Assembly (NCBI RefSeq): GCF_000701345.1
Contig: NZ_JNIJ01000010.1
Span: forward strand, 62,001 to 126,000
Origin: Bradyrhizobium sp. URHD0069
GTDB taxonomy: Bacteria > Pseudomonadota > Alphaproteobacteria > Rhizobiales > Xanthobacteraceae
DNA length: 64,000 bases
Reading direction: 5' to 3'
A program made the translations under genes and the position numbers. The notes beneath the pieces were generated by a model, which saw only the letters and a program-made list of their open reading frames with translations, was not told the DNA's origin and searched no databases. Below, piece by piece: positions 1-49,134 of this stretch. Position 1 is the first letter of the stretch. Each line of letters starts with the position of its first letter.

Positions 1-43
1 CATCCCACACATCAGGAAACCGCGCCGAAGGGGTTTAGCAACG

Positions 44-90
44 CATTGGTAATGGAGAGGTCGACAGTTCAATCCTGTCTGGCAGCACCA
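44..90 (+). mobile_element. attachment-site-like 3' fragment of tRNA-Thr(GGT)
   Basis: Bases 44-90 read as the last two thirds of a tRNA-Thr: anticodon loop TTGGTAA (anticodon GGT), 3' anticodon strand TGGAG, a five-base variable loop, a T arm GACAG-TTCAATC-CTGTC, an acceptor strand TGGCAGC, discriminator A and CCA at 88-90. The 5' half (acceptor GCTGCCA, D arm, CTCC of the anticodon stem) is absent: bases 1-43 do not resemble it and cannot pair with the 3' strand. A tRNA cut just 5' of the anticodon loop is the standard direct repeat left at the far end of an element integrated by a tyrosine recombinase. By orientation the element and the intact tRNA would lie to the left, and bases after 90 would be the original chromosome. 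Confidence 0.7.
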
Positions 91-646
91 TTTTTCCTAA
101 ACGAGATCGGTACTTAGCGACGCGATCGCTGTTCTTTCCCCCCGCGCCTCGGACGCGAACGGGGCGAGAACTGTCGCGCATATCGGGGAAAATACGGGGA
201 GTCTGTTCTCCGCACGTTCTTCGATTGTGTGCTGTGGCAATCACCGGTCGTCGTTCGACTGGCTTACCCCATGCAGATGGTCCGTTCGATCCACCCATCA
301 CGGCGTATGACGGCAACCTGCGCTGAGCGGATAGGGACTTCGTGCGCAACAAACGCCTTGTCTGACGCCAGTAGCGCTCGCCGCCGGCGAGCGCGAACAG
401 ACAATAATGCGATGGGGAATGCCGCCGCCGACGGCGTTCAACCGGACGGACGCCAATGTTTTCGCTGTTATCGAAGTCATGAATATGGGCGATCACGAAA
501 TTATCGGGCGATCCCGAAAGGCTGAACCAAAACGGGCCTTATCTTGTACCTGCGGAAGTCTGAAGTTCAGTTTGCAGGCGCCGCGAATATTAGCCTTTTG
601 CATCTTCGGCACTGAAAGCAGGACACAGGACAGAAGCGAGGCAACC
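91..646. other. gene-free stretch between tRNA fragment and dehydrogenase operon
   Basis: No convincing gene is present. Open frames here are short, lack ribosome binding sites and encode Arg/Cys-rich peptides without domains. The frame that runs from 407 into the dehydrogenase small subunit is only an upstream extension; the Tat signal begins at 647. The stretch probably holds the promoter of the dehydrogenase operon, but I could not pick a clear -35/-10 pair. Confidence 0.5.
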
Positions 647-1399
647 ATGCACAAGACGTCGCGGCCCGGGCTCTCGCGTCGTTCCATTCTGCTTTCGACC
701 GCAACACTCTTTATCGCTGGCGCCACAGGAGCGCGCGCCCGCACCATCGCGGGCAGCCTGCCCTGGGAGCCGAACGCGGGAAATCCACTAACACCGGTCA
801 AACTCGGGCCCTGGGAATTCTTCACCGGCGATGAAGGACGCGCGATGGAAGCTCTTGCCGACCGGATCATCCCGCCGGATCCCCAGACGCCCGGCGGCAA
901 GGACGCCGGTTGCGCGGTTTTCGTCGATCGCCAGCTTGCGGGACCGTACGGCAGGCAGGACGGCCTCTACATTCGTCCGCCTTTCAAGGCGGGAGCAAAA
1001 AATCAAGGCCATCAGATGGAAGCGGGACCCGGCCAGCAATATCGCCAGGGGCTTGCTGCGCTCGATCGCGCCTGCAAGTCGAAATATGCCGGGAAGCCAT
1101 TCGCGGAATTGTCCGACAGCGAAAAGGACATCGTCCTCAACGGCATCGAAAGCGGCGATTTCCAGCTCGAGGGCACCGACGGAAAATCATTCTTCGAACA
1201 GGCCATCAGGGATGTGCAGATGGGTTTCTTCGCCGACCCGATCTATGGCGGCAATCGCGACATGGTCGCATGGAAGATGATCGGCTTCCCGGGGGCGCGC
1301 TACAATTATCTCGACTGGGTAAACCGTCATAACGAACGCTTTCCGCTCCCGCCCGTAGGCATGACAGGCCGGGCGGAATGGACTCCCCAAACACGTTGA
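647..1399 (+). CDS. gluconate 2-dehydrogenase subunit 3 family protein (Tat-exported small subunit)
   Basis: A 250-residue protein that starts with a twin-arginine signal (SRRSILLS near residues 9-16, then a hydrophobic stretch ending in ARA), as expected for the gamma subunit of FAD-dependent sugar and gluconate dehydrogenases, which carries the flavoprotein to the periplasm by hitch-hiking. The C-terminal half has the family's DPIYGGNRDMVAWKMIGFPG segment. The ATG at 647 is chosen because the Tat motif follows at the usual distance; the frame is open further upstream, but that part has no signal character. It is the first gene of a three-gene operon with the GMC flavoprotein (9-base gap) and a triheme cytochrome c. 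The exact sugar or acid substrate cannot be read from the sequence. Confidence 0.88.
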   Translation: MHKTSRPGLSRRSILLSTATLFIAGATGARARTIAGSLPWEPNAGNPLTPVKLGPWEFFTGDEGRAMEALADRIIPPDPQTPGGKDAGCAVFVDRQLAGPYGRQDGLYIRPPFKAGAKNQGHQMEAGPGQQYRQGLAALDRACKSKYAGKPFAELSDSEKDIVLNGIESGDFQLEGTDGKSFFEQAIRDVQMGFFADPIYGGNRDMVAWKMIGFPGARYNYLDWVNRHNERFPLPPVGMTGRAEWTPQTR

Positions 1400-1408
1400 G
1401 GACCGGTC

Positions 1409-3187
1409 ATGGCGCGCAGGCTTCCGAAGAAAGACGTCGTCATCATCGGCCTCGGCTGGACCGGTTCGATCATGGCTCAGGAACTGACCGACGAAGGCCT
1501 CGATGTTATCGCGATCGAACGCGGCCCCTGGCGCGATACGCCGACCGATTTTCCGCCAAGCTACATGCAGGACGAGCTTCGCTATCGCGTGCGGCATGAG
1601 CTGTTCCTGCGCCCAGACCAGTTGACGTTCACATTCCGCAACAAGATGGACCAGACGGCGTTGCCTATCCGGAGCTGGGGTGCGTTCATGCCCCCGAACG
1701 GCGTTGGCGGCGGCGGTGTGCACTGGAACGCCGAGATGTGGCGCTTCCTGCCATCCGACTTCGTTTTGAAGAGTCATCTGACCGAGCGTTACGGCAAATC
1801 GTTCATGCCGGAGGACATGACGATCCAGGATTGGGGCATCACGTTTGACGACATCGAACCGTTTTACGACAGGTTCGAACATCTTTGTGGGACGTCGGGC
1901 ACTGCGGGCAATCTGAAAGGACAGATTCAGGAAGGCGGAAATCCGTTCGAAGGCCCCCGTTCGCGGCCCTATCCGACCCCCGCGCAGCCGCAACCCTTTA
2001 GCCAAACTTTGTTCGCCAAGGCTGCCCGCGAACTCGGCTACAAGCCATTTCCGCAGCCGTCCGGCAATCTGTCGACGGCCTACACCAATCCGCTCGGCCT
2101 GCGCATGGGTCCCTGCACCTACTGCGGATTTTGCGAATGGTTCGGCTGCGGCAACTATTCGAAGGCCAGCCCGCAAACGACGATCCTTCCGGTCCTCGTC
2201 CGCAAATCGAATTTCACGGCGCAGGACAATTCGGAGGTGGTCAGGATCAACGTCGACCGTTCCGGCAAGCACGCCACAGGCGTTACGTTCGTGGACAGCA
2301 GCGGAGAGGAATGGGAGCAGCAAGCGGATCTCGTGATCCTGTCGGCCTATACGATGTTCAACGTCCAGCTTCTGCTTCACTCGAAGATCGGCCAACCGTA
2401 CGACCCGATCGCCAACAGCGGCGTGATCGGCCGCAATTACACGCATCAGACGACATCGACCGTGAACGGGTTCTTCAACAACAAGAAATTCAATTTCAAC
2501 CCCTTCATCGCCTCGGGCTCGATCGGCATGTGCATCGACGAGTTCAATGGCGACAACTTCGATCATGGCCCGCACGGGTTCGTCGGCGGAGCGTATATGG
2601 GCCAGGTGCAGACCGGCGCCCGTCCGATTGAGAGCACGCTCACGCCACCCGGCACGCCGAAATGGGGTGCTTCATGGAAGAGCGCGGTGCGTGACAATTA
2701 CCTGAGCACCGTGAAGCCCGGCACAGGTGTGCACGGGAGCTTCTATGCGTACCGCGACAACTATCTTGATCTGGATCCCGAATACAAAGACCGGCTCGGC
2801 CGGCCGCTGATGCGCATCACGATGGATCTCCATGAGAACGAAGTGAAACAGAACAGGTTCATGACCGACAAGTTTGCGGAAATCATCAAGGCCATGGGCG
2901 CGGACCAACTCGCGAAGCACTATCGCACTGCGCCCTACGACAACACGGAGTATCAGACCACCCATCTCAACGGTGGCGCCATCATGGGTACCGATCCGAA
3001 GACCAGCGCGATCAACCGCTATTTGCAGAACTGGGACGTGTCTAACCTGTTTGTCCTCGGCGCAAGCGCATTTCCGCAGAACGCCGGATACAATCCGACA
3101 CTTACGGTTGGCGCACTGGCCTACTGGGCGGCGGATGCAATCCGCAATCGCTATCTCAAGAACCCGGGACCGCTCGTCGATGCGTAA
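1409..3187 (+). CDS. GMC-family flavoprotein subunit of gluconate/sugar dehydrogenase
   Basis: A 592-residue catalytic subunit that oxidises a sugar or sugar acid in the periplasm. An N-terminal FAD-binding motif (VVIIGLGWTG, residues about 9-18) starts the GMC fold. The C-terminus has the likely catalytic His (THLNGG, His519) and Asn (YNPTLT, Asn562). A cysteine cluster at 236, 239, 242 and 247 (CTYCGFC...C) matches the region that holds a 3Fe-4S cluster in FAD glucose and fructose dehydrogenase complexes and would wire FAD to the cytochrome subunit. It has no signal peptide of its own, consistent with Tat co-export with the preceding gene product. It overlaps the cytochrome gene by 8 bases. 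Gluconate 2-dehydrogenase is the best name; 2-ketogluconate, glucose or sorbitol dehydrogenases share this architecture. Confidence 0.88.
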   Translation: MARRLPKKDVVIIGLGWTGSIMAQELTDEGLDVIAIERGPWRDTPTDFPPSYMQDELRYRVRHELFLRPDQLTFTFRNKMDQTALPIRSWGAFMPPNGVGGGGVHWNAEMWRFLPSDFVLKSHLTERYGKSFMPEDMTIQDWGITFDDIEPFYDRFEHLCGTSGTAGNLKGQIQEGGNPFEGPRSRPYPTPAQPQPFSQTLFAKAARELGYKPFPQPSGNLSTAYTNPLGLRMGPCTYCGFCEWFGCGNYSKASPQTTILPVLVRKSNFTAQDNSEVVRINVDRSGKHATGVTFVDSSGEEWEQQADLVILSAYTMFNVQLLLHSKIGQPYDPIANSGVIGRNYTHQTTSTVNGFFNNKKFNFNPFIASGSIGMCIDEFNGDNFDHGPHGFVGGAYMGQVQTGARPIESTLTPPGTPKWGASWKSAVRDNYLSTVKPGTGVHGSFYAYRDNYLDLDPEYKDRLGRPLMRITMDLHENEVKQNRFMTDKFAEIIKAMGADQLAKHYRTAPYDNTEYQTTHLNGGAIMGTDPKTSAINRYLQNWDVSNLFVLGASAFPQNAGYNPTLTVGALAYWAADAIRNRYLKNPGPLVDA

Positions 3188-4436
3188 GACAACAAACGTG
3201 CGGTTGCTCGGTGCGCTCGTTGCCTTTGTGGCGGTCGGAGCGAGCTGCTCTGCCCAAGCGGGAGATTCCGACCCTCAGGCATTCACGCAAATCGAAAGAG
3301 GTCGATACCTTGCGGTGACGTCTGATTGCGTGAGCTGCCACACCGTTCCGGATAGCAACCAGCCGTTCGCCGGGGGACGCGCGATCGAGACGCCGTTCGG
3401 AAACATCTTCGCACCGAACATCACTCCCGATCCGGAGACCGGTATTGGCGCATGGAGTGATGACGAGTTCGACGCAGCCGTTCGCAAAGGGATCGGCCGA
3501 ACTGGATCGCCGCTTTATCCGGCAATGCCGTATAACGCCTTTACCAAGATGTCCCGTACCGACGTGCAGGCAATCCGGGCCTATCTGAATACGGTCACGC
3601 CGGTGCACAATCCGCGGGCCGCAACCGCGTTGCCGTTTCCCTTCAACATCCGCGCAGCAATGCGGGTGTGGAATGCGCTGTACTTCAAGGAGGGGGAGTA
3701 CACGCCCGATCCGCAAAAATCATCCGAATGGAACCGAGGCGCATTCCTGGTCGACGGACCTGCACACTGCGGCGCTTGCCATACTCCAAAATCGCTTTTG
3801 GGCGGCGACAAGCTGAACCAATATTTGCAGGGTTCCTATCTGCAAGGCTGGTCCGCTCCCGACATCACCAACAGCACGAGGTTGGGTCTCGGCCGCTGGG
3901 CCGTCGATGACATAGCCGCCTTTCTGAAAACTGGGCACAACCGGGTTAGCGCCGCGACCGGACCGATGGCGGAGGCCGTTAAGCTTTCGACGTCACAGAT
4001 GACGGATGCAGACGTCAGAGCGATCGCCACTTATTTGAAGTCGCTGCCGGGTGTTGAGGACGACGTCAAACCGCTGCCGCAGGATAACCCGGCAATGGCC
4101 GCCGGCGCCGCAATCTACCGCGATCAATGTTCGGCATGCCACGCGCTGGACGGTCGTGGTGTTGCAAAGCTTTTCCCGTCGATTGCGGATTCCTCGATGG
4201 TGCGGTCGGCCGATCCCACCACCGCGATCCGCATCGTGCTTCGCGGCGCACGCAGCGTCGCGACCGCCAGCGAACCCACCGCGCCGGGAATGCCGTCCTA
4301 CGGACGGCAACTCGGCGACGGCCAGGTGGCTGCGGTACTGACTTATATGCGCAACATGTGGGGCGGCGCAGCGCCCGCGGTGGCGGCAAAAGATGTGACG
4401 CGGGTAAGGTCAGAGACCGCGTCTCGCCCGGACTAG
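3180..4436 (+). CDS. triheme cytochrome c subunit of gluconate/sugar dehydrogenase
   Basis: A 418-residue exported cytochrome. A Sec signal peptide (about residues 1-27, ending SAQAG) precedes three class I cytochrome c domains with CXXCH sites CVSCH (Cys50), CGACH (Cys197) and CSACH (Cys317). Three hemes in one chain are typical of the beta subunit of membrane-bound gluconate, alcohol and sorbitol dehydrogenases, which passes electrons to ubiquinone. The ATG at 3180 lies inside the end of the flavoprotein gene, so translation is probably coupled. The three-gene set makes a complete periplasmic dehydrogenase able to feed the quinol oxidase encoded about 3 kb downstream, though that link is inference. 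Confidence 0.88.
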   Translation: MRKTTNVRLLGALVAFVAVGASCSAQAGDSDPQAFTQIERGRYLAVTSDCVSCHTVPDSNQPFAGGRAIETPFGNIFAPNITPDPETGIGAWSDDEFDAAVRKGIGRTGSPLYPAMPYNAFTKMSRTDVQAIRAYLNTVTPVHNPRAATALPFPFNIRAAMRVWNALYFKEGEYTPDPQKSSEWNRGAFLVDGPAHCGACHTPKSLLGGDKLNQYLQGSYLQGWSAPDITNSTRLGLGRWAVDDIAAFLKTGHNRVSAATGPMAEAVKLSTSQMTDADVRAIATYLKSLPGVEDDVKPLPQDNPAMAAGAAIYRDQCSACHALDGRGVAKLFPSIADSSMVRSADPTTAIRIVLRGARSVATASEPTAPGMPSYGRQLGDGQVAAVLTYMRNMWGGAAPAVAAKDVTRVRSETASRPD

Positions 4437-4440
4437 CGCG

Positions 4441-4536
4441 TATTCAAGCGAAGTGGAGCCCGGTCGCGTCAAGAAAACGCGTCAAATCAGGAATCCAAAG
4501 CCCCGTTTCGATTCCATCGAAACGGAAAAGCTCTAG
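4441..4536. repeat. Bradyrhizobium-type intergenic palindromic repeat
   Basis: Downstream of the dehydrogenase operon lies a repeat unit containing AAGTGGAGCCCGGTCGCGTC, an AAAACGCGTCAAAT block, and a perfect palindrome CCGTTTCGAT-tcc-ATCGAAACGG at 4503-4525 followed by GGAAAAGCTCTAG. The palindrome recurs nearly identically at 51909-51945. Elements of this kind are dispersed between genes in Bradyrhizobium. The rest of the 351-base gap before the next gene (4437-4787) shows no gene; it presumably carries the porin promoter. Confidence 0.7.
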
Positions 4537-4787
4537 CGCATGAACCCATAAATCCAGAGGCGTGGGCGAACGTTCGCCTGGGGCGCATTCCGGACTCAAG
4601 CACGCCTGAGCCGAACCCCGACATCAGAAAGAAAAACATTGTTTGTTTGGTTCGCGCTTAACGATGACGGTAGCGCGACCGATCTTGAGCACCTTACGGT
4701 TGCTTCCATCGCGCGCCGTACTTCCGATAGCGCTGTCGCGCGACCGAACCCGAGTGGACTCCCGGGGCAAAGCAGTAAGGAATTGCA

Positions 4788-5553
4788 ATGAAAAAGAAAA
4801 AGATTGTACTCGCAGGTGTCGCGCTGGCCGCCTTGCTCGGTGGCTCCGCGATGGCGGCGGATCTCTCGACAGCGCCGATGTACAAGGCTCCGCCGGCGGT
4901 GGCAGTTTGGAGCTGGACCGGATTCTATATCGGCATCAACGGCGGCTACGGCTTCGGCAACAACGACTTCACCCAATCGCTTACTCAGCCAGGCATCGTC
5001 GCAAGCTCATTCGACAAACATACGGTCGCCCCCGAAGGGCGGATTGTTCGGCGGTCAGGCCGGCTACAACTGGCAGGTCGGAAATGTTGTCCTTGGCGTG
5101 GAGGGTGACGCCCAATGGGCCGACCAGCATGATACGTCGTGCGGCTTTCTCTGCCAGAATCAAGGGGCTTTAACAGCGGGTATTACCGTGAGCCAAAAGC
5201 TCGAATGGTTCGCGACCGCGCGTGGCCGCCTCGGCTGGGCCAATGATGGCTATCTGCTCTACGTGACGGGTGGCGGCGCTTGGGGCGGGATTGACGAAAA
5301 CCAAACGCTCTTCCTCCCTGCAGGGACACTCGGGGGTTCTTCCAGTACGACCAAGAGCGGCTGGACGGTCGGTGGCGGCATCGAGGCGCGACTGTGGGGC
5401 AATTGGACCGGAAAGTTCGAATACCTGCACATGGACCTCGGCAACATGACCAGCGTCTTTGTTCCGGATCCGGTCGCGGGGATTACGATCGTCACGACCA
5501 GCCATATCCAGAACGATCTGATCCGCGCGGGCCTCAACTACAAATTTAACTAA
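4788..5553 (+). pseudogene. Omp31/OmpA-like beta-barrel porin, frameshifted
   Basis: The gene begins well: a RBS (TAAGGAA) before ATG 4788, a Sec signal peptide (MKKKKIVLAGVALAALLGG... AMAA) and the family's WTGFYIGINGGYGFG strand near residue 45. After HTVAP (about residue 82) the reading frame is lost; barrel sequence continues in the +1 frame from GGLFGGQAGYNWQVG to the C-terminal LNYKFN at 5553. Deleting one C from the C5 run at 5029-5033 restores a continuous frame (TVAPKGGLFGGQ), giving a porin of about 255 residues. A real inactivating insertion, phase-variable slippage, or a sequencing error in the homopolymer would all look like this. An intact relative is encoded at 11292-12005. Confidence 0.8.
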
Positions 5554-5618
5554 AGCCCGATCTAGGTTGGGCGGCGCGGTCGTCGCGAGGTATCGATCTT
5601 TATCGTCTCAGCAACTTC

Positions 5619-5646
5619 AAAGCCCCGGCATGATCCGGGGCTTTTT
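5619..5646 (+). terminator. rho-independent terminator after porin gene
   Basis: Stem AAGCCCCGG / CCGGGGCTT with a six-base loop, followed by a T run, 66 bases after the porin stop codon. Confidence 0.8.
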
Positions 5647-6465
5647 CGTGCCGGAACGTTTCCAAGACCACCAGCTTGATTCGCGGTTCTCTGCGTGACG
5701 AGTTCGCTATGGCCTTCCAGGGTAAGAAACCGGCGGCGATCAGTGTAATTTGTTGAGCCGGATCAATCTGATTTGGGTAGTCCAGCCCCATTTGCAAAAA
5801 TATTCCGCTTCCCGTTTGACCCAAATCACTTTTAGAACCCTCGCCGTCTCACCCCATGAGAGGGGCGTATCGCGATCGTCACGGACGCGGGGTGGGATGC
5901 GGTGGACGCGGCAGCGTCGGGCGCGCATTTCGCAATCGCAGGGCGGGTTGAACCTCGTGAGCGATTTGCGGCGCGCAGACGAACGACGCTAACGCGTACG
6001 GCAAAACCGTGTGGTCCTGGCACCCGGTGCTGGTGTCAAGTCGGCGGAGGTTTTGCGAGCCCAACCGGGTTCGGCAAAACCCCAATCCGCCGATGACGGT
6101 GACAAGACGAATTCGTCGCCGGGGAGAGCACGATATAAGCCGTTAAAACCATTGCGTGCGGGAATGCCGGGTGTTCCGGTGACCTGCGGTGACTACCGTG
6201 TGCTTACTACCATTGCACACGGGCTGCGGGTGCACCGTGCACCCGGCATTCCCCACGCCCTCTGTTGGGCGAAAAATTCCAGCACGACTCGGGCGCATCG
6301 CGCCGCGGGATCGCGAAGCCGTGTTTGGTGAATACGAACGCGCCACACTTTCAGTCGTCGTCGCCCGCGAAGGCGGGCGATCCAGTATTCCAGAGACGCT
6401 GACGATGGAATCGAGAGGCCGCGGCGTACTGGATACCCCGCATGCGCGGGGTATGACGACTCTTG

Positions 6466-6555
6466 CCGTCATTGCGAGGAGCGAAGCGACGAAGCAATCC
6501 AGCTTTTCTATGCTGGCGGCAATTATGGATTGCTTCGCTTCGCTCGCAATGACGG
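6466..6555. repeat. long inverted repeat, REP-like family (CCGTCATTGCGAG type)
   Basis: The left arm starts CCGTCATTGCGAGGAGCG and runs to GAAGCAATCC; the right arm is GGATTGCTTCGC followed by TTCGCTCGCAATGACGG. The loop is about 25 bases. The same family is present, in interrupted form, at 51952-52072. Confidence 0.75.
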
Positions 6556-6615
6556 TCTCAACGCGCCACACGCCCAGCCGTCATCGCCGGCGAAAGAGCG
6601 TGTGAAGGATACCGA

Positions 6616-6725
6616 CCTCATCCTGAGGAGCTTGCGAAGCAAGCGTCTCGAAGGATGGACGCAAACGCAGGGACTCGCGGCCATCCTTCGAGACGCGCGC
6701 GCAGGGCGCGCTCCTCAGGATGAGG
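6616..6725. repeat. long inverted repeat, second family (CCTCATCCTGAGGAGC type)
   Basis: The left arm CCTCATCCTGAGGAGC continues through GTCTCGAAGGATGG; the right arm is CCATCCTTCGAGAC followed by GCTCCTCAGGATGAGG. The arms are complementary over most of their length around a centre near 6670. No coding sequence is associated with it. Confidence 0.75.
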
Positions 6726-6858
6726 GATATGATCACAACCTCGAAAGCGGCGCACCGAAATCCCTTTCTAAAATTCATTTTAATGGTGCGGGCGGATTGG
6801 CGACCCTAGATGGGCTTCACGCATCCGACGTTCTAGCAAACCAAAGTGGAGTTTCGCC

Positions 6859-7110
6859 TTGTCGAACACCTCGGCAAAAATCGCTTTCGCATCGTTACTG
6901 ATCTTGGCCACCCCTGCCGCTTCATGGGCGCGAGCCGCGGGCGGAGCGGGAATGGGAAATGTGCCCATCAGCGGCATTACGCGGGGCCCGGCAAACGCCG
7001 GCGGGATGAACAACGTGACGGTCGATCCGAGCGGGATTGGAAACGCTTCCAGGATGGCTGCGCCGCCGCCGCCGCGCATAACTGTCCCGACGATTCCGCA
7101 GTTTAAGTGA
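6859..7110 (+). CDS. small exported protein with conserved PPPRI-VP-IPQFK tail (copy A)
   Basis: An 83-residue protein of unknown function. The N-terminus is a Sec signal peptide (MSNTSAKIAFASLLILATPAASWARA), leaving a Gly/Ala/Pro-rich mature peptide of about 57 residues that ends VDPSGIGNASRMA, PPPPRITVP, IPQFK. It starts with TTG at 6859 after AGTGGAG; the paralogue on the opposite strand (16044-16322) has ATG at the aligned position, which supports this start. The two copies also share about 100 bases of leader (from GCACCGAAAT onward). No cysteines and no known domain are visible. Its place upstream of the quinol oxidase genes may be incidental. Confidence 0.65.
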   Translation: MSNTSAKIAFASLLILATPAASWARAAGGAGMGNVPISGITRGPANAGGMNNVTVDPSGIGNASRMAAPPPPRITVPTIPQFK

Positions 7111-7203
7111 TGTGAAGATAACTCACGACTTCGATACGCCCGCGCGGCGGCGCCGCTATCGCCGCTTTCACTTCATGGTTCGTCTTAATGTCAGGGGTCG
7201 GCG

Positions 7204-8034
7204 ATGAATATCCTTGATCCACAGGGCCCGATCGGAATCGCCGAAAAAACCATCCTGATCGACTCAGTTGCGATCATGCTTGCGATCGTGGTGCCAACCA
7301 TCGTCGCGATCTTTGCCTTCGCCTATTGGTTTCGGGCATCCAACGCAAAGGCAGCCCACTTGCCGGACTGGGAGTATTCGGGCCGTATCGAGCTTGTCGT
7401 CTGGTCGATCCCTACACTCACCGTCATCCTGCTCGGCGGCGTCGCATGGATCGGCGCCCACGAACTCGACCCCGCGAAGGCGATCGACGGACCTTCGCCG
7501 CCGCTGACGATTCAGGCGGTGTCTCTCGACTGGAAATGGCTGTTCATCTACCCCGACCAGAAAATCGCGACCATCAATACGCTGACCGTTCCCGCCGGCG
7601 TGCCGCTGCAGTTCCAACTCACCTCGGCAAGCGTGATGAACGCGTTCTTCATCCCGCAACTCGGAAGCCTGATCTACACCATGAACGGCATGACCACCCG
7701 GCTCAATCTTCGGGCGGACAAGCCCGGGACGCTTCAAGGCCTTTCGGGGCATTTCAGCGGCGACGGATTTTCCGACATGCACTTTGACGTCCATGTCGTG
7801 CCATCAGAGGAATTTTCGAAATGGGCGCAGGACGGCTCACAAGTGGAGAAGTCGCTTGACGAGCATAGCTATGAACAGATCGCCAAGCCTTCGATGAAGA
7901 ACGAGCCGGCAATCTACCGGCTGGCCGATCCGGATCTCTTTCGATCGATCGCGACGCAGAAGATACCGTCTTCCCCAGGAGCGCCGTCGGGCGTGATAGG
8001 AGCCGCACTGCCGGGGGTCGCCGATGTTCGGTAA
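7204..8034 (+). CDS. cyoA: cytochrome bo3-type ubiquinol oxidase subunit II
   Basis: Subunit II of the quinol oxidase: a 276-residue inner-membrane protein with two N-terminal membrane helices (about residues 22-45 and 63-85) and a periplasmic cupredoxin domain that has no CuA cysteines, as expected for a quinol rather than a cytochrome c oxidase. The segment [10 protein letters not shown] followed by the [16 protein letters not shown] strand is characteristic of CyoA. A good RBS (AGGGG) precedes ATG 7204. Most CyoA proteins start with a lipoprotein signal and cysteine; here an in-frame TAA at 7186 stops any such extension, so the protein begins directly at [10 protein letters not shown]. It overlaps cyoB by 11 bases. 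Equivalent genes in Bradyrhizobium have been called coxWXYZ. Confidence 0.92.
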
Positions 8035-10024
8035 GCTCACCTGGGCAGCGATCCCGATCGATCAGCCGATCCCCATGATCGCTTCCGGCGTCGTCGCGCT
8101 CGCCATTCTCGCTATCCTCGCCTGGGTCGTCATCAAGGGGCACCTGCCGTATCTGTGGCACGAGTGGATCACCAGCGTCGACCATAAGCGCATCGGCGTG
8201 ATGTACACGCTGCTCGCCATGGTGATGTTGCTGCGGGGCTTTGCGGACGCCATCATGATGCGGGCGCAGCAGTCGGTTGCGTTCCATAGCCAAGGTTTCC
8301 TTCCACCGGAGCATTACGACCAGATCTTCTCGGCGCACGGCACGATCATGATCTTCTTTGTCGCCATGCCGTTCGTGATCGGGCTGATGAACTTGGTCGT
8401 CCCGTTGCAACTGGGCGTGCGCGACGTTGCCTTTCCGACCTTGAACTCGGTCGGCTTCTGGCTGACCGCCACCGGGGCGCTGCTCGTCAACATATCGCTG
8501 GTGGTCGGCGAATTCGCGCGCACCGGCTGGCTGCCGTATCCGCCGCTGTCGGAGCTCGCTTATTCGCCCGGCGTCGGGGTCGACTATTATCTTTGGTCGC
8601 TCCAGATAGCCGGCGTCGGCACGCTGGTCTCGGGCATCAATCTGGTCACCACCGTGCTGAAGGTGCGCACCAGGGGCATGACTTATCTCCGCATGCCGAT
8701 GTTCTGCTGGACCGCGCTGGCGACAAATCTGTTGATCGTGGCGGCATTTCCGATCCTGACCGCGACGTTGGCGATGCTGCTGCTCGACCGCTATCTGGGC
8801 TTTCACTTTTTTACCAACGACGGCGGCGGCAACATGATGATGTTCATGAACCTGATCTGGGCCTGGGGTCATCCGGAAGTCTACATTCTCGTGCTTCCGG
8901 CGTTCGGCATCTTCTCGGAAGTGGTCTCGACGTTCTCCGGCAAGCCGCTGTTCGGCTACCGTTCGATGGTGCTCGCCACCATGGCGATTTGCGTTATCTC
9001 GTTCATGGTATGGCTGCATCATTTCTTCACCATGGGAGCCGGCCCCGACGTCAACGCGATATTTGGCATCGCAAGCATGATCATCGCGGTGCCGACCGGC
9101 GTGAAGATCTACAACTGGCTGTTCACGATGTATGGCGGCAGGGTACGGTTTGAGACGCCGCTCCTGTGGTCCATCGGCTTCATGGTGACGTTCATCATCG
9201 GGGGCTTGACCGGCGTTCTGCTCGCCGTGCCGCCAGCTGACTTCGTCCTGCACAACAGCCTGTTCCTGGTTGCGCACTTCCACAACGTCATCATCGGCGG
9301 CGTTCTGTTCGGCGCGTTCGCGGGCTACACTTACTGGTTTCCCAAGGCGTTCGGCTTCAAGCTTCACGAAGGTCTTGGGCAAGCGGCATTCTGGTGCTGG
9401 CAGGTCGGCTTCTACGTCGCCTTCATGCCGCTTTATGCAGTTGGCCTGCTCGGCATGACCCGGCGGATGCAGCACTATGACGTGCCGGAATGGCACCCCT
9501 GGCTGATCGTTGCCGGGTTCGGCGCAGCCCTGATCCTGTGCGGCATCGTGTTTCAAATCCTGCAGCTTGTCGTCAGCATCCGCCAGCGTGCGCGCCTGGC
9601 CGACAAAACCGGCGACCCATGGGATGGCCGCTCGCTCGAATGGGCCACCTCTTCGCCGCCGCCGGTCTTTAATTTCGCTGTGCTGCCCGACGTCTCCGGC
9701 GAGGATGCCTTTTGGAGGATCAAAAAGCGTGCGGCGGAGGGGACAGTATCCGACGAAAAGCCGGAGTACCGAGACATTGAGATGCCGCGCAACTCGCCGA
9801 CCGGATTCGTTTGCGCCTTCTTCGCCACCATGATGGGCTTTGCATTGATCTGGCACATCTGGTGGATGGTTGCCGCAGGAGCGATCGGCGCCTTCGCCAC
9901 TTTCATCGTGTTCGCGTGGCGTGACCACGATGAGTATGTGATTCCGGCAGACGAAGTCGCACGCATCGACCGCAGCAGCAATGCGCAGCGTCAGGCGATC
10001 CTTAGCGCACAGGCTGCCCGATGA
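8024..10024 (+). CDS. cyoB: cytochrome bo3-type ubiquinol oxidase subunit I
   Basis: The 666-residue catalytic subunit that reduces oxygen at a heme-CuB centre and pumps protons. Visible ligands: HPEVY with His283 and the cross-linked Tyr287, and the CuB pair His332-His333 (WLHHFF). Residues known in E. coli to bind ubiquinol are all present at matching positions (Arg71, Asp75, and the His and Gln of HYDQ at 97 and 100), so quinol is the electron donor. The length equals that of E. coli CyoB (663). The gene overlaps cyoA and shares an ATGA with cyoC, so the operon is translationally coupled. Confidence 0.96.
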
Positions 10025-10662
10025 GCACAGTTGCCTTTGCAGAAACTCACGACGATCCCAACACGTTGCGGGCTTCCAGTCGCAGCTGGAGCGGCCCCGC
10101 GTCGAAGCGCATCGTTACCGGTTACGGTTTTTGGATCTTCATTCTCAGCGATATGGTCATGTTCTCGGCCTTCTTCGCGAGCTACGCCGTCCTGGTCGGG
10201 CAGACGGCGGGTGGGCCGAGCGGCCGCGACCTGTTCGATTTGCGCAGTGTCGCGATGGAAACTGGATTCCTGCTGGCGTCGAGCTTTACTTGCGGCCTCG
10301 CCACCATCTCCGCCGACGCCCGGCAGACGACCTGGTTCCAACTTGCCATGGCCGTCACCTGCGTGTTCGGCCTCGCCTTTCTCATTCTTGAGGGCAGGGA
10401 ATTCGCCGCCCTCGTTACACAGGGCGCCGGACCGACCCGGAGCGCCTTTCTGTCAGCGTTCTTCACGCTGGTCGGCTGTCACGGCCTGCACGTCTCGGCC
10501 GGCATCCTGTGGCTGCTGACGATGATGGCGCAGGTTTTCACCAAAGGATTCAGGCCGGACATTCAGCGCCGCATCCTGTGCTTCGCGCTGTTCTGGCACG
10601 CGCTCGACATCATCTGGATCGCCGTATTCACCATCGTGTATCTGTTGGGAAGCGCAGCATGA
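10021..10662 (+). CDS. cyoC: cytochrome bo3-type ubiquinol oxidase subunit III
   Basis: A 213-residue heme-copper oxidase subunit III with five predicted membrane helices; the motifs [20 protein letters not shown] near residue 35 and the [14 protein letters not shown] helix are typical of CyoC. It stabilises the oxidase core in the inner membrane. The start ATG overlaps the cyoB stop (ATGA) and its own stop overlaps cyoD in the same way. Confidence 0.94.
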
Positions 10663-11054
10663 GCAACGCACACCATGAGCTCGACGACTGCATCGATCTC
10701 GCGCCGGGCGATGAGCACGTAGAGGGTGGCATCGGGCAGCGGGTCATCGGCTATCTCACCGGACTGGGGCTCGCCATCCTGCTGACGGCGACCTCTTTCT
10801 TTGTCGCGGGCACCGACCTCGTATGGCAGCCGAGCATTCCGGTGGCACTGATCGTTTTGGCCATTGCCCAAATGGGTGTGCATCTCGTGTTCTTCCTGCA
10901 CATTACAACGGGGCCTGACAACACCAACAACGTGCTGGCGCTGGCCTTCGGTGTCCTGATCGTATTTCTCGTGATAGGCGGATCGCTGTGGATCATGGCA
11001 AACCTCAACCACAACATGATGCCGATGGACGAAATCATGCAGATGCAGCGCTAG
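10659..11054 (+). CDS. cyoD: cytochrome bo3-type ubiquinol oxidase subunit IV
   Basis: A 131-residue protein with a short acidic cytoplasmic tail (HHELDDCIDLAPGDEH) and three membrane helices; QMGVHLVFFLHITTG is the conserved CyoD segment. It is needed for assembly of the CuB site in the E. coli enzyme. The start at 10659 is set by the ATGA overlap with cyoC. No heme O synthase gene (cyoE) follows; farnesylation would have to come from ctaB at 41689-42627. Downstream is a short palindrome (ACGCAGCGTGCTGCGT) without a T run. Confidence 0.93.
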   Translation: MSNAHHELDDCIDLAPGDEHVEGGIGQRVIGYLTGLGLAILLTATSFFVAGTDLVWQPSIPVALIVLAIAQMGVHLVFFLHITTGPDNTNNVLALAFGVLIVFLVIGGSLWIMANLNHNMMPMDEIMQMQR

Positions 11055-11291
11055 CCACGGCGACACAATCCCCGCCCGCCACGCAGCGTGCTGCGTCATC
11101 GAAAAATTAAGGCATCTTTAAGGTGTGGTTAGGGGTTCGTTAGTCACGGAAATTTGTTGTAGCCCAAATGGTTGGGTTCTCGGCAGGTGTGACCGATGGG
11201 TGACAGCATTTTAGGCAAAAGGTGTCTATCTCCGCCCCCATGGATGGAGCCGGTACGCGGCCCTCCGAAGATCTTGCGGAGAAAAAAACTA

Positions 11292-12005
11292 ATGAAGAAG
11301 TTTCTACTCGCTACTGTGGCCCTCGTCGCTCTCGGCGCGACTGTGCCAGCACTTGCAGCCGATCTCGCGGCTCGCCCCTACACCAAGGCTCCGGCTTATG
11401 CCCCGGCGCCGATCTACAATTGGACCGGCTTCTACATCGGCGGTCACATCGGCGGCGCTTTCGCGGGCGAAAATAGCTTGACCGGTGACGATGGCCGCTT
11501 TTTCGGCGGTGTGCAGGGCGGCGCCGACTATCAGTTCGCCCCCAGCTGGGTGATTGGTGTCGAAGCCCAGTACAGCTGGCTTGGCAGCAACAACAATGGC
11601 GTGCTGTTCCCGGGCGGGACTCTCGTGAACTCCAATAGCGACCAGCTTGGATCGGTCACCGGTCGGCTCGGCTACACCTGGGGCCCGGCGCTGCTTTACG
11701 CCAAGGGCGGTTATGCCTGGAAGGATGGTAACAACCTCAGCGCAAGGGTCGGCGGCGTGCCGGTGGCTTTCACGACCGACGGCAACAATCGCGACGGCTA
11801 TACCGTCGGTGCCGGCCTCGAATACATGTTCGCGCCGAACTGGTCTGGTAAGGTCGAATACCAGTACTACAACTTCGGCAGCACCTCGTTCACCAGCGGC
11901 CCGGCCGACATCGTCGGCGTCCGCTTCCGCGACGACGAGCATACTGTCAAGGCTGGCCTGAATTATCGCTTCAACTGGGGCGGTCCGGTGGGCCCGAAGT
12001 ACTGA
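11292..12005 (+). CDS. Omp31/OmpA-like outer-membrane beta-barrel protein
   Basis: A 237-residue porin-like protein. A signal peptide (MKKFLLATVALVALGATVPALA) is followed by an Ala/Pro-rich linker, then an eight-strand-type barrel opening with IYNWTGFYIGGHIGG and closing with TVKAGLNYRFNWG. This family is abundant in the outer membrane of Bradyrhizobiaceae and Brucella (Omp25/Omp31 type). The ATG at 11292 is chosen because the signal peptide begins there; a GCGGAG RBS lies 9-14 bases upstream. It has its own terminator. It is the intact relative of the frameshifted gene at 4788-5553. Confidence 0.9.
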   Translation: MKKFLLATVALVALGATVPALAADLAARPYTKAPAYAPAPIYNWTGFYIGGHIGGAFAGENSLTGDDGRFFGGVQGGADYQFAPSWVIGVEAQYSWLGSNNNGVLFPGGTLVNSNSDQLGSVTGRLGYTWGPALLYAKGGYAWKDGNNLSARVGGVPVAFTTDGNNRDGYTVGAGLEYMFAPNWSGKVEYQYYNFGSTSFTSGPADIVGVRFRDDEHTVKAGLNYRFNWGGPVGPKY

Positions 12006-12025
12006 TCGAGTCAGAAGAACTACGG

Positions 12026-12053
12026 AAAGGCCGGCCTTGCGCCGGCCTTTTTG
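12026..12053 (+). terminator. rho-independent terminator after porin gene
   Basis: Stem AAGGCCGGC / GCCGGCCTT around a four- to five-base loop, followed by a T-rich run, 20 bases after the stop codon. Confidence 0.85.
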
Positions 12054-12158
12054 TTTTGATGCGCAAAAATTGCGCAAATCCTTCGAATGCTCCCGATTTT
12101 GTTAACTCCATATCGCGATACTGCCACCCGCAGTTCAACTCTGGTGGACGGGGACAGT

Positions 12159-14306
12159 ATGGCGGCGCGATTCACGACCGGTAACCTTGGTTGGCTCTTG
12201 AGGTTCTTGCGTCCGCAATGGGGCGTCCGGGGCAGCCTCTTCGCCGCCTTCGCCGTGATCGCAGGCATGGCGCTCGTCATTAGCAACGGTGCCGGCATCG
12301 TGCTGGGGCATCTCGGCAGGTCGATGGTCGACCTGAGCGGGCGGGACATTCCCCGTCTCGCGGCCAGCCTGCAACTTTCAGCGCAGAGCGCAAGCCTTGC
12401 CAGTCAGGGCCCGGCACTGCTGGCGTCCGCAAGCCAGGATGCGCTGAACGAGCGCTCCAAGAAAATGAAAGAAACGCAAGCCGTCACGTTCGATACGCTT
12501 GGCCAGATCATCGAGCTCGGCGCCGACAAGGCGATCGCCGCAGCCCTCACTCAAACCGTAAAGAACATCGACGATACGATCAACAGCTTAGGCGGGGCGG
12601 CCCGCGAACGGTTGGAAGCCTCTGCCCAGCATGAGAAGCTATACGTCGCGCTGCGCAACGCGCAGGCGAGCTTCGTTGCCGCCGCCAGCCCGGCGATGCT
12701 GGACGCCCAAGCCCAGCTCAATGCCATCCTCGGCTCTGCCAATCTTTCTCCTGACGACGCAACCGAGGCCGCGCGGACGGTCGAACAAATCGGCAATGTC
12801 GTTGCCAGCAGCAATCTGTCGGCATCCGACATGACGGCTGCGCTCTCGGCAAATAGCGGCGACACGCTCGAGGCCATCGAAAAAGAATTCAAGGCGAGCC
12901 AGGCGCGTGTCAAATCCAATATCGATCTGCTGCCGAAAAACTCCGCTACTGCGGCGCTTCGAGACGCCGCGCTGAAATTGCTGGAGTTGGGCGAGGGCAA
13001 AACCGGCGTTTTCAAACTTCGCCAGAAGGAACTGGACGCTAACGATTACGGCCAGACCATTCTGGAGGAAACTCGCAAGCTCAATGTCGGCCTCGACATC
13101 AGCGTGCAGGAACTCGTCCACGGCGTGCAGAGCCAGACCGACGCCGCGACCTGGCAGGCGCGCAAGGAGATTTCGCTGGCCACCACGGTCATGCTTGCGC
13201 TTGGCGGCCTCACTTTGATCGGATCGGTGATGTTCGTCTGGCTCTATGTCGGCCGCAACATCCTGCGCCGGATCGGCAACTTGCAGCGCTCGATGCAGCT
13301 TCTATCCGACGGCGACCTCGAAACGGAAATCCATCGATCGAGCCAGCACGACGAGATTGCGGCGATGGCGAATTCGCTGCAGGTTTTCCGCGAGAGCATG
13401 ATCGTGGCCCGCGCGCTCAGCGCCGATCAAGACAAGGATCGCATCGCCAAGGCCGAACGCGCTTCCCGCATGGAGGCGCGGATCATCGATTTCGAAGCCA
13501 CCGTCCGCACCGCGCTCGACACACTGCAGAAGTCGGCCAATTCCATGCAGGACACGGCGCAAAGCATGTCGGCGACCGCCGATCAATCCAGTGCGCTGGT
13601 GACCGCGGTCGCGTCCGCCGCCGAGGAAACCTCCGTCAACGTGCAGACCGTGTCCTCGGGCACCGAGGAGCTTTCTTCATCGATCGCCGAAATCGGCCGC
13701 CAGGTGATTACTTCGGCAGAAATCGCCCGCAAGGCCGTCGAAGAAGCCGGCGTCACCGACGCCACCATGCAAGGGCTTGCCGAAAACGCCAGCCGCATCA
13801 GCGTCGTAGTTGACCTGATTCAAGTCATCGCCTCGCAGACCAACCTGCTCGCGCTCAACGCCACCATCGAGGCCGCGCGGGCCGGCGAAGCCGGCAGGGG
13901 CTTTGCCGTGGTTGCTTCCGAGGTAAAGAGCCTCGCCAACCAGACCGCCAAGGCCACCGACGAAATCCGCTCGCAAATCGCCAGCATGCAGCAGGTGACC
14001 ACGTCGGCGGTCGGCGCGATCCGCAACATCGGCCAGACCATCAGCGAGATCAACGAAGTCACCGCTGCGATTGCGGCAGCGGTCGAACAGCAGGGCGCGG
14101 CGACGCGCGAGATCGCCCGCAACATCCAGCACGCCGCCGGCGGCACCAGCCAGGTTTCCAGCAACATCGTCGGCGTCAGCACCGCCTCGACCGAAGCCGG
14201 ATCGGCGGCAGGCGAGGTGCTGAGCGCGTCCGGCGCGCTTCGGCACGAAGCCGACGTGCTGCGCTCCGAAATCGACGCCTTCCTCACCAACATACGAGCC
14301 GCCTAA
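12159..14306 (+). CDS. methyl-accepting chemotaxis protein
   Basis: A 715-residue transmembrane chemoreceptor. TM1 lies at about residues 25-50, a long helical periplasmic sensor domain (about 51-335) is bounded by TM2 (about 336-360), then comes a HAMP linker and a cytoplasmic signalling domain with the kinase-binding hairpin tip ([20 protein letters not shown]). The ligand is not predictable. ATG 12159 is preferred over an in-frame ATG at 12087 because a GGGGA element sits six bases before it and the extra 24 residues look unstructured. No che genes are adjacent, so this is an orphan receptor. No C-terminal CheR pentapeptide is present (ends FLTNIRAA). Confidence 0.92.
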
Positions 14307-14321
14307 AGCTTGTCGCCATGC

Positions 14322-14343
14322 GGCGCAGGCTTAAGCCTGCGCC
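14322..14343 (+). terminator. perfect 22-bp palindrome after chemoreceptor gene
   Basis: GGCGCAGGCTTAAGCCTGCGCC begins 16 bases past the stop codon. It could fold as a strong hairpin and end transcription, but no T run follows, so a repeat-type role is equally possible. Confidence 0.4.
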
Positions 14344-14461
14344 GGGAATGCATGGATTGCCTCGCGTTTGCCGGGGGCGCAGGGCCGGCATTCCCCGCGT
14401 TTTGTCGAAATCGCCACCGTTTTTCGGCTGGCGCCGCGCCGATTGTGCGGCTAAGCCGATA

Positions 14462-14509
14462 GAGCGCGATCAGCAGAAGTGGGATCCGGTTTTGCGTTCG
14501 ATCGTGCTC
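14462..14509. repeat. imperfect inverted repeat of the GATCCGGTTTTGCG type
   Basis: GAGCGCGAT at the left and ATCGTGCTC at the right bracket AAGTGGGATCCGGTTTTGCG. The central AAGTGGGNNCCGG motif is shared with the element at 4441-4536 and, inverted, with 29230-29306, suggesting one family. Confidence 0.6.
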
Positions 14510-14592
14510 CGGGTTTCTATCGGGCGCATGATCTCTTCGCCAAACCGCTGAAACTGTGGCGAATCATGCGCCGCAACATTGCGACGCTAACG

Positions 14593-15654
14593 ATGCATTC
14601 AAAAACAGACACGATTCAATCCTCGGCCGAGGCGCTGCGCTATCCCTGGGAAGACCATCCCGGCCAGGATCAGGTCGTCGAGGTGATGCCGGGAGTATTG
14701 TGGGTCCGGCTCAAACTGCCGTTCCGCCTCAATCACGTGAACATCTATCTGCTCGCCGATGGCGACGGCTGGGCGATGGTAGATTCCGGATTTGGCAACG
14801 AGGAGTCGATCGCAGCCTGGACTGCCCTGTTCGAAGGGCCGCTGGCGCATGTGAAGATCACCCGGTTGATCGTGACCCATTCGCATCCCGATCACGTCGG
14901 TCTTGCGGGTTGGATCGTCGAGCGCTTCAACTGCTCGCTCCATATGTCGCAGGTGGAATATCTGCAGTCGGTCTACCATCAGAACCGCGGCACCGAAGAG
15001 CGCAGAAACGCGCAGCGCCTGTTCTTCCGCCGTCACGGCATGGACGAGGACCTGACCGACAAATTGCTCGGTCGCGGCCAGGACTACCTGAAGCGGGTCT
15101 CGATTCTGCCGCCGTCCTACCGCCGCATCTCGCATGGCGACGAAATTTCCATCGGCACGCGGCGCTTCAAGGTCATTACCGGCGGCGGCCATGCGCTGGA
15201 TCAAGTGATGCTGTATTGCGCCGCCGACAAGCTGTTCCTGTCAGCCGACCAGGTGCTGAGCAAGATTTCGCCCAACGTCAGCGTCTGGGCCGTCGAACCC
15301 GACCAGAACTCGCTGGGCGAGTATCTCGCCTCGCTGGCGAGCCTGACCACCACCCTGCCCTATGACGTCATCGTGCTGCCCGGCCACGGGCTGCCGTTTT
15401 ACGGACTGAAGACACGTATCAAGCAATTGGCCGATCATCACGAGGATCGGTGCCGGCTGATTGCCGAGGCCTGCCGGGACACGCCGCAAACCTCGAAGGA
15501 ACTGGTGCCGGTGGTATTCCACAAGCACGCACTCGACGTGCATCAGATGGGATTTGCCGCCGGCGAGCTGATCGCCCATGTCAATTACATGCTGGTCGAA
15601 GGACGTCTGACCGCCGAGGAGGCCGACGGCGTGCTGCGCTTCAGGACAACCTGA
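14593..15654 (+). CDS. metallo-beta-lactamase-fold hydrolase
   Basis: A 353-residue MBL-fold protein with the zinc motif THSHPDHVG (about residues 95-103), a later His (GGGHALDQ), an Asp (SADQVLS) and a final LPGHG, so the binuclear site looks complete. A C-terminal helical extension (about residues 285-353) resembles that of glyoxalase-II-like and lactonase-like hydrolases. Proteins of this subfamily are often labelled Zn-dependent hydrolases, including glyoxylases, but the substrate is unknown. The frame is open further upstream, across the repeat at 14462-14509; ATG 14593 avoids the repeat-derived residues, and ATG 14566 is an alternative. Confidence 0.82.
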   Translation: MHSKTDTIQSSAEALRYPWEDHPGQDQVVEVMPGVLWVRLKLPFRLNHVNIYLLADGDGWAMVDSGFGNEESIAAWTALFEGPLAHVKITRLIVTHSHPDHVGLAGWIVERFNCSLHMSQVEYLQSVYHQNRGTEERRNAQRLFFRRHGMDEDLTDKLLGRGQDYLKRVSILPPSYRRISHGDEISIGTRRFKVITGGGHALDQVMLYCAADKLFLSADQVLSKISPNVSVWAVEPDQNSLGEYLASLASLTTTLPYDVIVLPGHGLPFYGLKTRIKQLADHHEDRCRLIAEACRDTPQTSKELVPVVFHKHALDVHQMGFAAGELIAHVNYMLVEGRLTAEEADGVLRFRTT

Positions 15655-48697: not shown

Positions 48698-49033
48698 GTG
48701 ACCTTCGACGACGTCAGAAAGATTGCGTTTGCCTGGCCGGAGGTCGAGGACGGCACCTCTTACGGCACAGTCGCGCTCAAGGTGCGCAAGAAACTGCTGG
48801 TGCGACTGAAGGAAGATGGCGACAGCCTGGTGGTGCCGGGCGTTCCGCATGAGGAACGCGACATGCTGGTGGAGAGCCAGCCGAAGGTGTTTTACTTCAC
48901 CAATCACTACAAAGATTATCCGATCGTGCTGATCCGGCTGTCGAAGGCCAAGCGCGCTACCGTCGAGCCGCTGCTGCGCCGGCAATGGCGGTCACTGGCC
49001 TCGAAAGCGGCGGTCGAGTCGATGGAATCGTAG
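48698..49033 (+). CDS. MmcQ/YjbR family DNA-binding-like protein
   Basis: A 111-residue protein of the CyaY-like-fold MmcQ/YjbR family: TFDDVRKIAFAWPEVEDGTSYG at the N-terminus, and LLVRLKEDGDSLVV and FYFTNHYKDYPIVLIRL in the sheet. The biochemical role is unknown. GTG start at 48698, 47 bases after lepB in the same direction, so co-transcription is possible. A palindromic repeat begins at the stop codon. Confidence 0.85.
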   Translation: MTFDDVRKIAFAWPEVEDGTSYGTVALKVRKKLLVRLKEDGDSLVVPGVPHEERDMLVESQPKVFYFTNHYKDYPIVLIRLSKAKRATVEPLLRRQWRSLASKAAVESMES

Positions 49034-49110
49034 GGTGCCCAAAGCGCAAGCGGGCCCACCGTTGAGATGAAGCCTGCCGACTTTGAATGGTGGGCACGCT
49101 TCGCTTTGCC
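49034..49110. repeat. inverted repeat, GGTGGGCA..CTTTGCC family
   Basis: The left arm GGTGCCCAAAGCGCAAGCGG followed by GCCCACC and the right arm GGTGGGCACGCTTCGCTTTG followed by CCGGCCC are imperfectly complementary around a 20-base loop. The uninterrupted right arm contains CGCTTCGCT, the site at which the related element at 54369-54487 carries an insert. Confidence 0.7.
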
Positions 49111-49134
49111 GGCCCTGCGCACTACGACTGAACT

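Follow-up and report, generated by a model that had tools for sequence, protein, structure and literature searches.

The window, a stretch of 64,000 nucleotides that covers C7:62001-126000 (C7 being one of the 129 contigs of a 6.79-Mb draft genome), shows within its first 90 bases what appears to be one half of a tRNA gene. The question is how the 3' end of a tRNA gene came to lie there and whether it marks the end of a mobile element. A sequence-only reading had described bases 44-90 as an anticodon-loop-to-CCA segment of tRNA-Thr that lacks its 5' half. It had taken the segment for the end of an island and had predicted an intact tRNA-Thr(GGT) gene with a direct repeat of these bases to the left. 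Both claims hold. Over all of its 47 bp the segment matches bases 29-75 of a 75-nt tRNA-Thr(GGT) gene exactly, with 0 bases of extension on either side: the repeat runs from the last two stem bases ahead of the anticodon loop to the encoded CCA. An exact match of this length is far beyond chance. ARAGORN found 0 tRNAs in the window, so the 5' half of the fragment is absent. It placed the intact tRNA-Thr(GGT) gene at C7:39563-39637, on the same contig and strand as the fragment, 22,453 bp to the left and in the predicted orientation.

With up to 2 mismatches, a 43-base part of the repeat has just two occurrences in the genome, namely in the intact tRNA and in the fragment. When the tRNA was searched together with its upstream DNA, the sole other match listed in the same genome was one of 77% (9 of 35 candidates scored). 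C7:39563-39637 is the only tRNA-Thr(GGT) gene that we found in the genome, and its repair at the left end of an inserted island would therefore matter. Across window positions 91-12300 there is no exact match of at least 11 bases to the repeat on the + strand that could represent an older second tRNA-Thr fragment. The Rfam matches at window positions 1-13000 were all far below the gathering scores and were taken as chance.

The interval between the two copies is filled by phage-type genes and a tyrosine integrase gene, which agrees with the claim that the fragment is the end of an island. We conclude, with a probability of about 0.93, that window positions 44-90 are a 5'-truncated copy of the tRNA-Thr(GGT) gene at the right end of a 22.5-kb island, likely inserted by a tyrosine integrase at the anticodon loop. 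On this reading the integrase would have recombined in the anticodon loop of the tRNA-Thr(GGT) gene. The incoming island would have brought its own 3' 47 bases, which would have completed an intact tRNA at the left end, and the original tRNA 3' end would have been displaced to the right end as the fragment. As in the Islander definition, an intact tRNA is followed downstream by a 3' fragment on the same strand with a tyrosine integrase between them, and the distance of 22,453 bp lies within 2-200 kb. The island lies within one contig and holds no N, and its G+C content is 0.583 compared to 0.625 in the 19.5 kb to the left. Bases 1-43 had been assigned to the inside of the element and they do lie on the island side, between the integrase gene and the fragment. 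The right end of the island, these bases included, has no match within ∼1.5 kb of tRNA-Thr in 29 relatives, the best-matching of 79. Table 1 gives the coordinates of the features discussed below.

Table 1. Features of the right island end, their companions outside the window and the right flank. Plain coordinates are window positions; those preceded by C7 are positions on the contig that carries the window.
Feature	Position	Strand	Remark
Island DNA between integrase gene and fragment, part of the P arm	1..43	.	No match near tRNA-Thr in 29 relatives
TCCCACA, candidate integrase arm-type site	3..9	+	41 bases before the repeat
attR core: 3' fragment of tRNA-Thr(GGT), anticodon stem-loop to CCA	44..90	+	47-bp exact repeat, right-end direct repeat
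Partner copy of the fragment	C7:39591-39637		Inside the intact tRNA, outside the window
Companion TCCCACA copies, left end	C7:39673, 39686		Outside the window
Tyrosine integrase	C7:60523-61902	-	459 aa from the likely start
Companion TCCCACA copies, right end	C7:61909, 61922		Outside the window
Accessory right flank: sugar-dehydrogenase operon (GMC oxidoreductase, cytochrome c), outer-membrane protein, cytochrome oxidase operon	91..11192	.	Names from ORF reading alone
SRAP gene remnant	379..429	+	82% identical to part of the island's SRAP gene
Core synteny block: outer-membrane protein, chemotaxis receptor, MBL-fold gene	11193..15654	+	Names from ORF reading

The position of the integrase gene differs from what had been predicted. 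The sequence-only reading had placed it next to the intact tRNA at the far left end, whereas the gene was found at the right end, with a likely start codon (C7:61902) that lies 99 bases to the left of window base 1 and 141 bp to the left of the fragment. The gene reads away from the fragment and into the island. The ORFs scanned beside the intact tRNA, a PD-T4-5-like/Abi-like protein and others, included 0 integrases. The longest integrase frame starts 27 bases before the likely start and gives a form of 468 aa. We matched this form to Pfam Phage_integrase (PF00589) with an E-value of 7.8e-6 and 26.2 bits, just under the cut-off of 27.1 bits, and the 459-aa form to phrog_1 'integrase' with an E-value of 6.9e-19. 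The phage collection contained no relatives of the integrase; one viral contig carries a relative at 35-40% and the named-genome collection contains four weak loci. With its likely start ∼141 bp from the fragment and its reading direction back towards the island, the integrase gene would lie on the tRNA-5' side of the crossover in the circular form. This geometry is that of the OD shape as defined in the relevant passages of PMC2951348: the integrase is divergent from the fragment and the att region lies upstream of the integrase gene. In self-repressed integrases of this shape the promoter of the gene would overlap the att region and be shut down by the integrase; a search of the DNA before the present gene revealed no sigma-70-type promoter.

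A layout with the integrase beside the fragment has a precedent in CP4-6 of E. coli K-12, and the kind is thus already known. CP4-6 also has an intact tRNA-Thr at the left (thrW at 262871), a 3' fragment from the anticodon stem-loop at the right (49 bp, at 297206) and an integrase gene at the fragment end that reads away from it (intF, 295696-297096 on the - strand). The fragment starts at tRNA position 28 in CP4-6 and at position 29 here. The two elements differ in their target, which is tRNA-Thr(CGT) in CP4-6, and in their cargo, and their integrases are only marginally alignable (19.6% over 109 residues, E-value 0.006). The passages of PMC2951348 that concern this locus class ptwF-intF as OD shape and report that the expression of an intF fusion was ∼23-fold lower with IntF present; from its position, ptwF would be the 49-bp fragment of CP4-6. 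The Islander catalogue, according to the passages of PMC4383910 that describe it, lists 3' fragments for 3760 islands and anticodon-centred sites for 2083. The present island resembles the 3'-fragment, anticodon-centred class in its regenerated tRNA, its displaced 3' fragment and the integrase between the two, and the same passages give no sorting by the end that bears the integrase. One portion of PMC9897764 describes a 21.4-kb island between a partial and a complete tRNA-Gln gene with 44-bp repeats. The anatomy of the island is therefore ordinary, save that the integrase gene adjoins the fragment instead of the intact tRNA. From a tRNA fragment alone one can predict an island and an intact tRNA, but not the end that bears the integrase.

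This placement is not an oddity of one island, as the same was seen in the nearest relative element and in 24 of 42 related integrase loci. The 42 loci are part of a longer match list from which five same-place repeats (L042, L044, L045, L047 and L049) were dropped. In the 24 loci a tRNA 3' fragment was found upstream of the integrase gene (22 Glu, 1 Thr and 1 Arg), and in all 24 the fragment points away from the integrase. In 10 out of 10 places tested, the copy at the far end proved to be an intact tRNA-Glu(CTC). For the remaining 18 loci we found no Glu, Thr or Arg fragment at up to 3 mismatches; two of these 18 have a Glu fragment with one deleted base and four have less than 400 bp of upstream DNA. 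ARAGORN reported a tRNA at 0 of the 26 integrase loci L088-L113. Surveys that pair integrases with annotated tRNA genes, such as the one in the parts of PMC2951348 considered here, would likely miss many such loci because the neighbour is an unannotated fragment. At one locus (L092, in genome G155) a tRNA-Arg 3'-end match with 3 mismatches lies just beyond the integrase gene and a tRNA-Glu fragment lies on its other side; this is the single match in the opposite direction among the related loci.

In the nearest relative element, which is carried by genome G020, the integrase is 53% identical and adjoins a 3' fragment of tRNA-Arg(CCG). The intact tRNA-Arg lies 46 kb from the fragment, and the 45-bp repeat starts in the anticodon loop. 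ARAGORN called a 71-nt tRNA-Arg beside this integrase; since the repeat stops at 45 bp, the call consists of the fragment with unrelated 5' sequence. The G020 element shares with the present island the integrase-HTH-primase module in the same order (primase 66%), the HTH proteins, the HGGxSTG-type protein, the acyltransferase and the SRAP protein, as well as the integrase beside the fragment and a left pair of TCCCACA repeats at equal offsets. It differs in its target tRNA-Arg, its size of 46 kb, a spacing of 12 in the right-hand TCCCACA pair, a second SRAP match and extra cargo.

The TCCCACA repeats occur at both ends of the island, at +36 and +49 past the end of the intact tRNA and at -41, -122 and -135 before the fragment. 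There are 8 copies in the island on both strands, of which 5 are no more than 135 bp away from the core repeats at its two ends. We settled on the motif only after seeing it; with this in mind, none of 2000 simulated first-order Markov sequences of the same composition had 5 copies near the ends, and the mean total was 1.6. Of the four exact matches that the tandem arrangement TCCCACA-N6-TCCCACA has in 265 genus genomes, the island accounts for two, one per end, and the G020 element for a third, at its left end. The fourth is in G138, where the 1.7 kb viewed contain neither a tRNA nor an island gene. The +36/+49 pair is common to tRNA-Thr here and tRNA-Arg in G020. After the tRNA-Thr of G031 the pair is found at +36/+49 with one mismatch and in G083 at about +34/+48, while G176 has one site only. 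The right-hand pair of G020 has a spacing of 12, not 13, and its two copies likewise abut the integrase start. Beside the integrases at tRNA-Glu fragments we did not find the pair, which is not a general feature of the related elements.

We consider the repeats at both ends likely to be arm-type binding sites of the integrase, a prediction from sequence that draws on the fact that their sequence, spacing and offset were kept while the target tRNA changed from Thr to Arg. Upstream of the likely start codon of the integrase gene, the copies at -122 and -135 are 7 and 20 bases away and together span bases 7-26. An integrase bound to these sites might repress its own gene, as in the E. coli precedent, and the position of sites that abut the start codon lends support to such self-repression. 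With equal offsets in two elements that have different target tRNAs, the repeats offer a simple handle for finding and testing further members of the family.

We then compared the flanks of the island with those of related genomes. The left flank is conserved over at least 500 bp in 28 of 29 relatives (the best-matching of 79). The claim that the DNA from base 91 onward is core chromosome is not supported. For window positions 91-365 there were 0 matches among 2 candidates scored in each of the other 264 genus genomes, positions ∼366-455 match SRAP genes, and the block that follows tRNA-Thr in several relatives corresponds to the window from 11.19 kb onward. The outer-membrane protein gene has homologues in G006, G003 and G010 that begin 0.7-1.1 kb after tRNA-Thr and are followed by the chemotaxis receptor gene, the MBL-fold gene and, further on, ALA synthase; in the present genome this core block begins at 11.19 kb of the window. 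The DNA between base 91 and this block has a G+C content of 0.598 compared to 0.621 to its right. The listed homologues of its sugar-dehydrogenase operon lie elsewhere in the relatives, and only G025 of the nine relatives compared around tRNA-Thr has the cytochrome oxidase operon at this place. Positions 91-11192 thus look accessory, and in the relatives compared tRNA-Thr does not have them as its conserved neighbour. At the junction base 91 belongs to the chromosome; its status as old core is unsupported. The SRAP gene remnant hints at a mobile element that entered the right side earlier and has since decayed.

Two further observations concern this flank. The cytochrome oxidase operon at window positions 7204-10662 represents a second accessory layer at the tRNA-Thr hot spot and lies elsewhere in the other listed relatives. 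Window positions 4438-4536 match DNA immediately behind tRNA-Thr in G010 and at a greater distance downstream of it in G004; the match was rejected as evidence of synteny, there being no shared gene, and looks like a dispersed intergenic repeat.

An exact empty site, with tRNA-Thr directly before base 91, occurs in no relative examined, and none of them carries the sequence from 91 onward after its tRNA. What supports the right junction is consequently the repeat, not a clean comparison. The lack of an empty site would also fit a fragment that is an old tRNA pseudogene, produced by partial duplication and unconnected to any mobile element. We consider such an origin extremely improbable: the copy is 100% identical over 47 bp and stops exactly at CCA, the interval contains an integrase and phage-type genes, both copies are flanked by TCCCACA repeats, and a homologous element with the same layout occupies another tRNA in G020.

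The gene content of the island was studied in 24 ORFs, of which 20 were scanned with Pfam and 12 with PHROGs. Reading from right to left, the integrase is followed by two small proteins, one of which has an HTH match below the Pfam cut-off, a protein of unknown function and a primase-helicase (PriCT_2 and AAA_25). Left of the primase-helicase there are three small proteins, among them one with an HGGxSTG match below the cut-off and one weakly similar to a phage small-terminase-like protein. Further left we encountered a lipoprotein-like protein, an HTH protein, a tail-fibre-like protein with an esterase, an acyltransferase-SGNH protein and the SRAP protein, and, as the neighbour of the intact tRNA, a protein that matches PD-T4-5 in the defence library. 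No capsid, head, portal, large-terminase or tail-tube genes were recognised with Pfam in 20 of the 24 ORFs and with PHROGs in 12 of the 24. The tail-fibre-like and esterase genes (C7:50464-52011 and 48709-49125) occur without a recognised virion set. A viral contig (L138:16407-20261) carries two fibre genes that are 56-58% identical to the N-terminal part of the island fibre, and also a relative of the island primase with 56% identity. The gene at C7:39950-40618, the first sizeable one past the intact tRNA, matches the PD-T4-5 model with an E-value of 9.6e-12 and Abi_2 weakly, and possibly has an anti-phage function.

This content raises the possibility that the island is a phage satellite similar to the phage-inducible PICIs, which would replicate with its own primase and travel in the particles of a helper phage. 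In the passages of PMC6092414 that describe them, PICIs likewise have an integrase, a small HTH regulator and a primase-replication gene, with no head or tail-tube genes recognised. The module expected of such a satellite is int - alpA/merR - primase-replication, with no phage structural genes beside it. The order of integrase, HTH and primase/AAA_25 in the island speaks for such an element, as do the recognition of only tail-fibre-like genes among the structural genes, the presence of those genes as such and the weak relative of a phage small-terminase-like protein (27% identity). However, that match covers residues 54-134 and thus falls for the most part beyond the region of the phage protein with matches to terminase families (8-65), and the small HTH protein remains under the Pfam cut-off. 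The island also has no clear terS or helper, carries tail-fibre-like genes and is larger than the PICIs of PMC6092414: its 22.5 kb exceed the ∼15 kb that the passages concerned give as typical of Gram-positive ones. A satellite nature seems rather unlikely to us on this evidence. A more specific proposal, which we regard as quite improbable, is that the island belongs to an undescribed satellite family of the genus. In such a family the integrase lineage would shift among tRNA anticodon loops (Thr, Arg) while the TCCCACA arms stay fixed, the integrase gene would be locked beside the fragment for self-shutoff, and the elements would carry their own tail-fibre genes.

We also studied the tRNA-Thr site across the genus. 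The tRNA-Thr 43-mer is present in 258 of 265 genomes and occurs twice in 19 of them, including the present one. Among these two-copy genomes we viewed the surroundings in G025, G031, G089, G090, G108, G135 and G184 and one region of G276. The distance between the copies was 5.2 kb in G184, 13.2 kb in G089, 16.9 kb in G108, 18.0 kb in G090, 54.7 kb in G025 and 206 kb in G135. In G184 an integrase-like frame, identified by its motif only, also adjoins the fragment. A left arm like that of the island follows tRNA-Thr in G031, G083 and G176, with no related integrase in the stretches viewed. In G276 the left arm follows a degenerate tRNA-Thr remnant and adjoins a homologue of one island gene. The arms in these four genomes look like the remains of older insertions.

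Given such remains, the island itself could be a decayed remnant that is unable to move, in which case the att fragment would be genuine but a fossil. The elements with this left arm in G031, G083 and G176 look decayed and lack a related integrase in the stretches viewed, and virion genes were not recognised in the island, which gives this possibility some credence. We nevertheless lean against it, since the repeats are identical, all 24 followed frames are open without stops, those of the integrase and the primase included, and TCCCACA repeats are found at both ends. The island may still be mobile today.

Two of the viewed genomes showed further particularities. In G031 (C1:7320707-7322552, locus L074) the tRNA-Thr and a 3' fragment are 1.8 kb apart; the interval keeps the left arm of the island, contains no related integrase and has an open frame of 497 codons with the look of a membrane protein. 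In G089 (L120, C1:1220001-1237000) the two copies, 13.2 kb apart, are two complete tRNA-Thr(GGT) genes and not a gene and a fragment.
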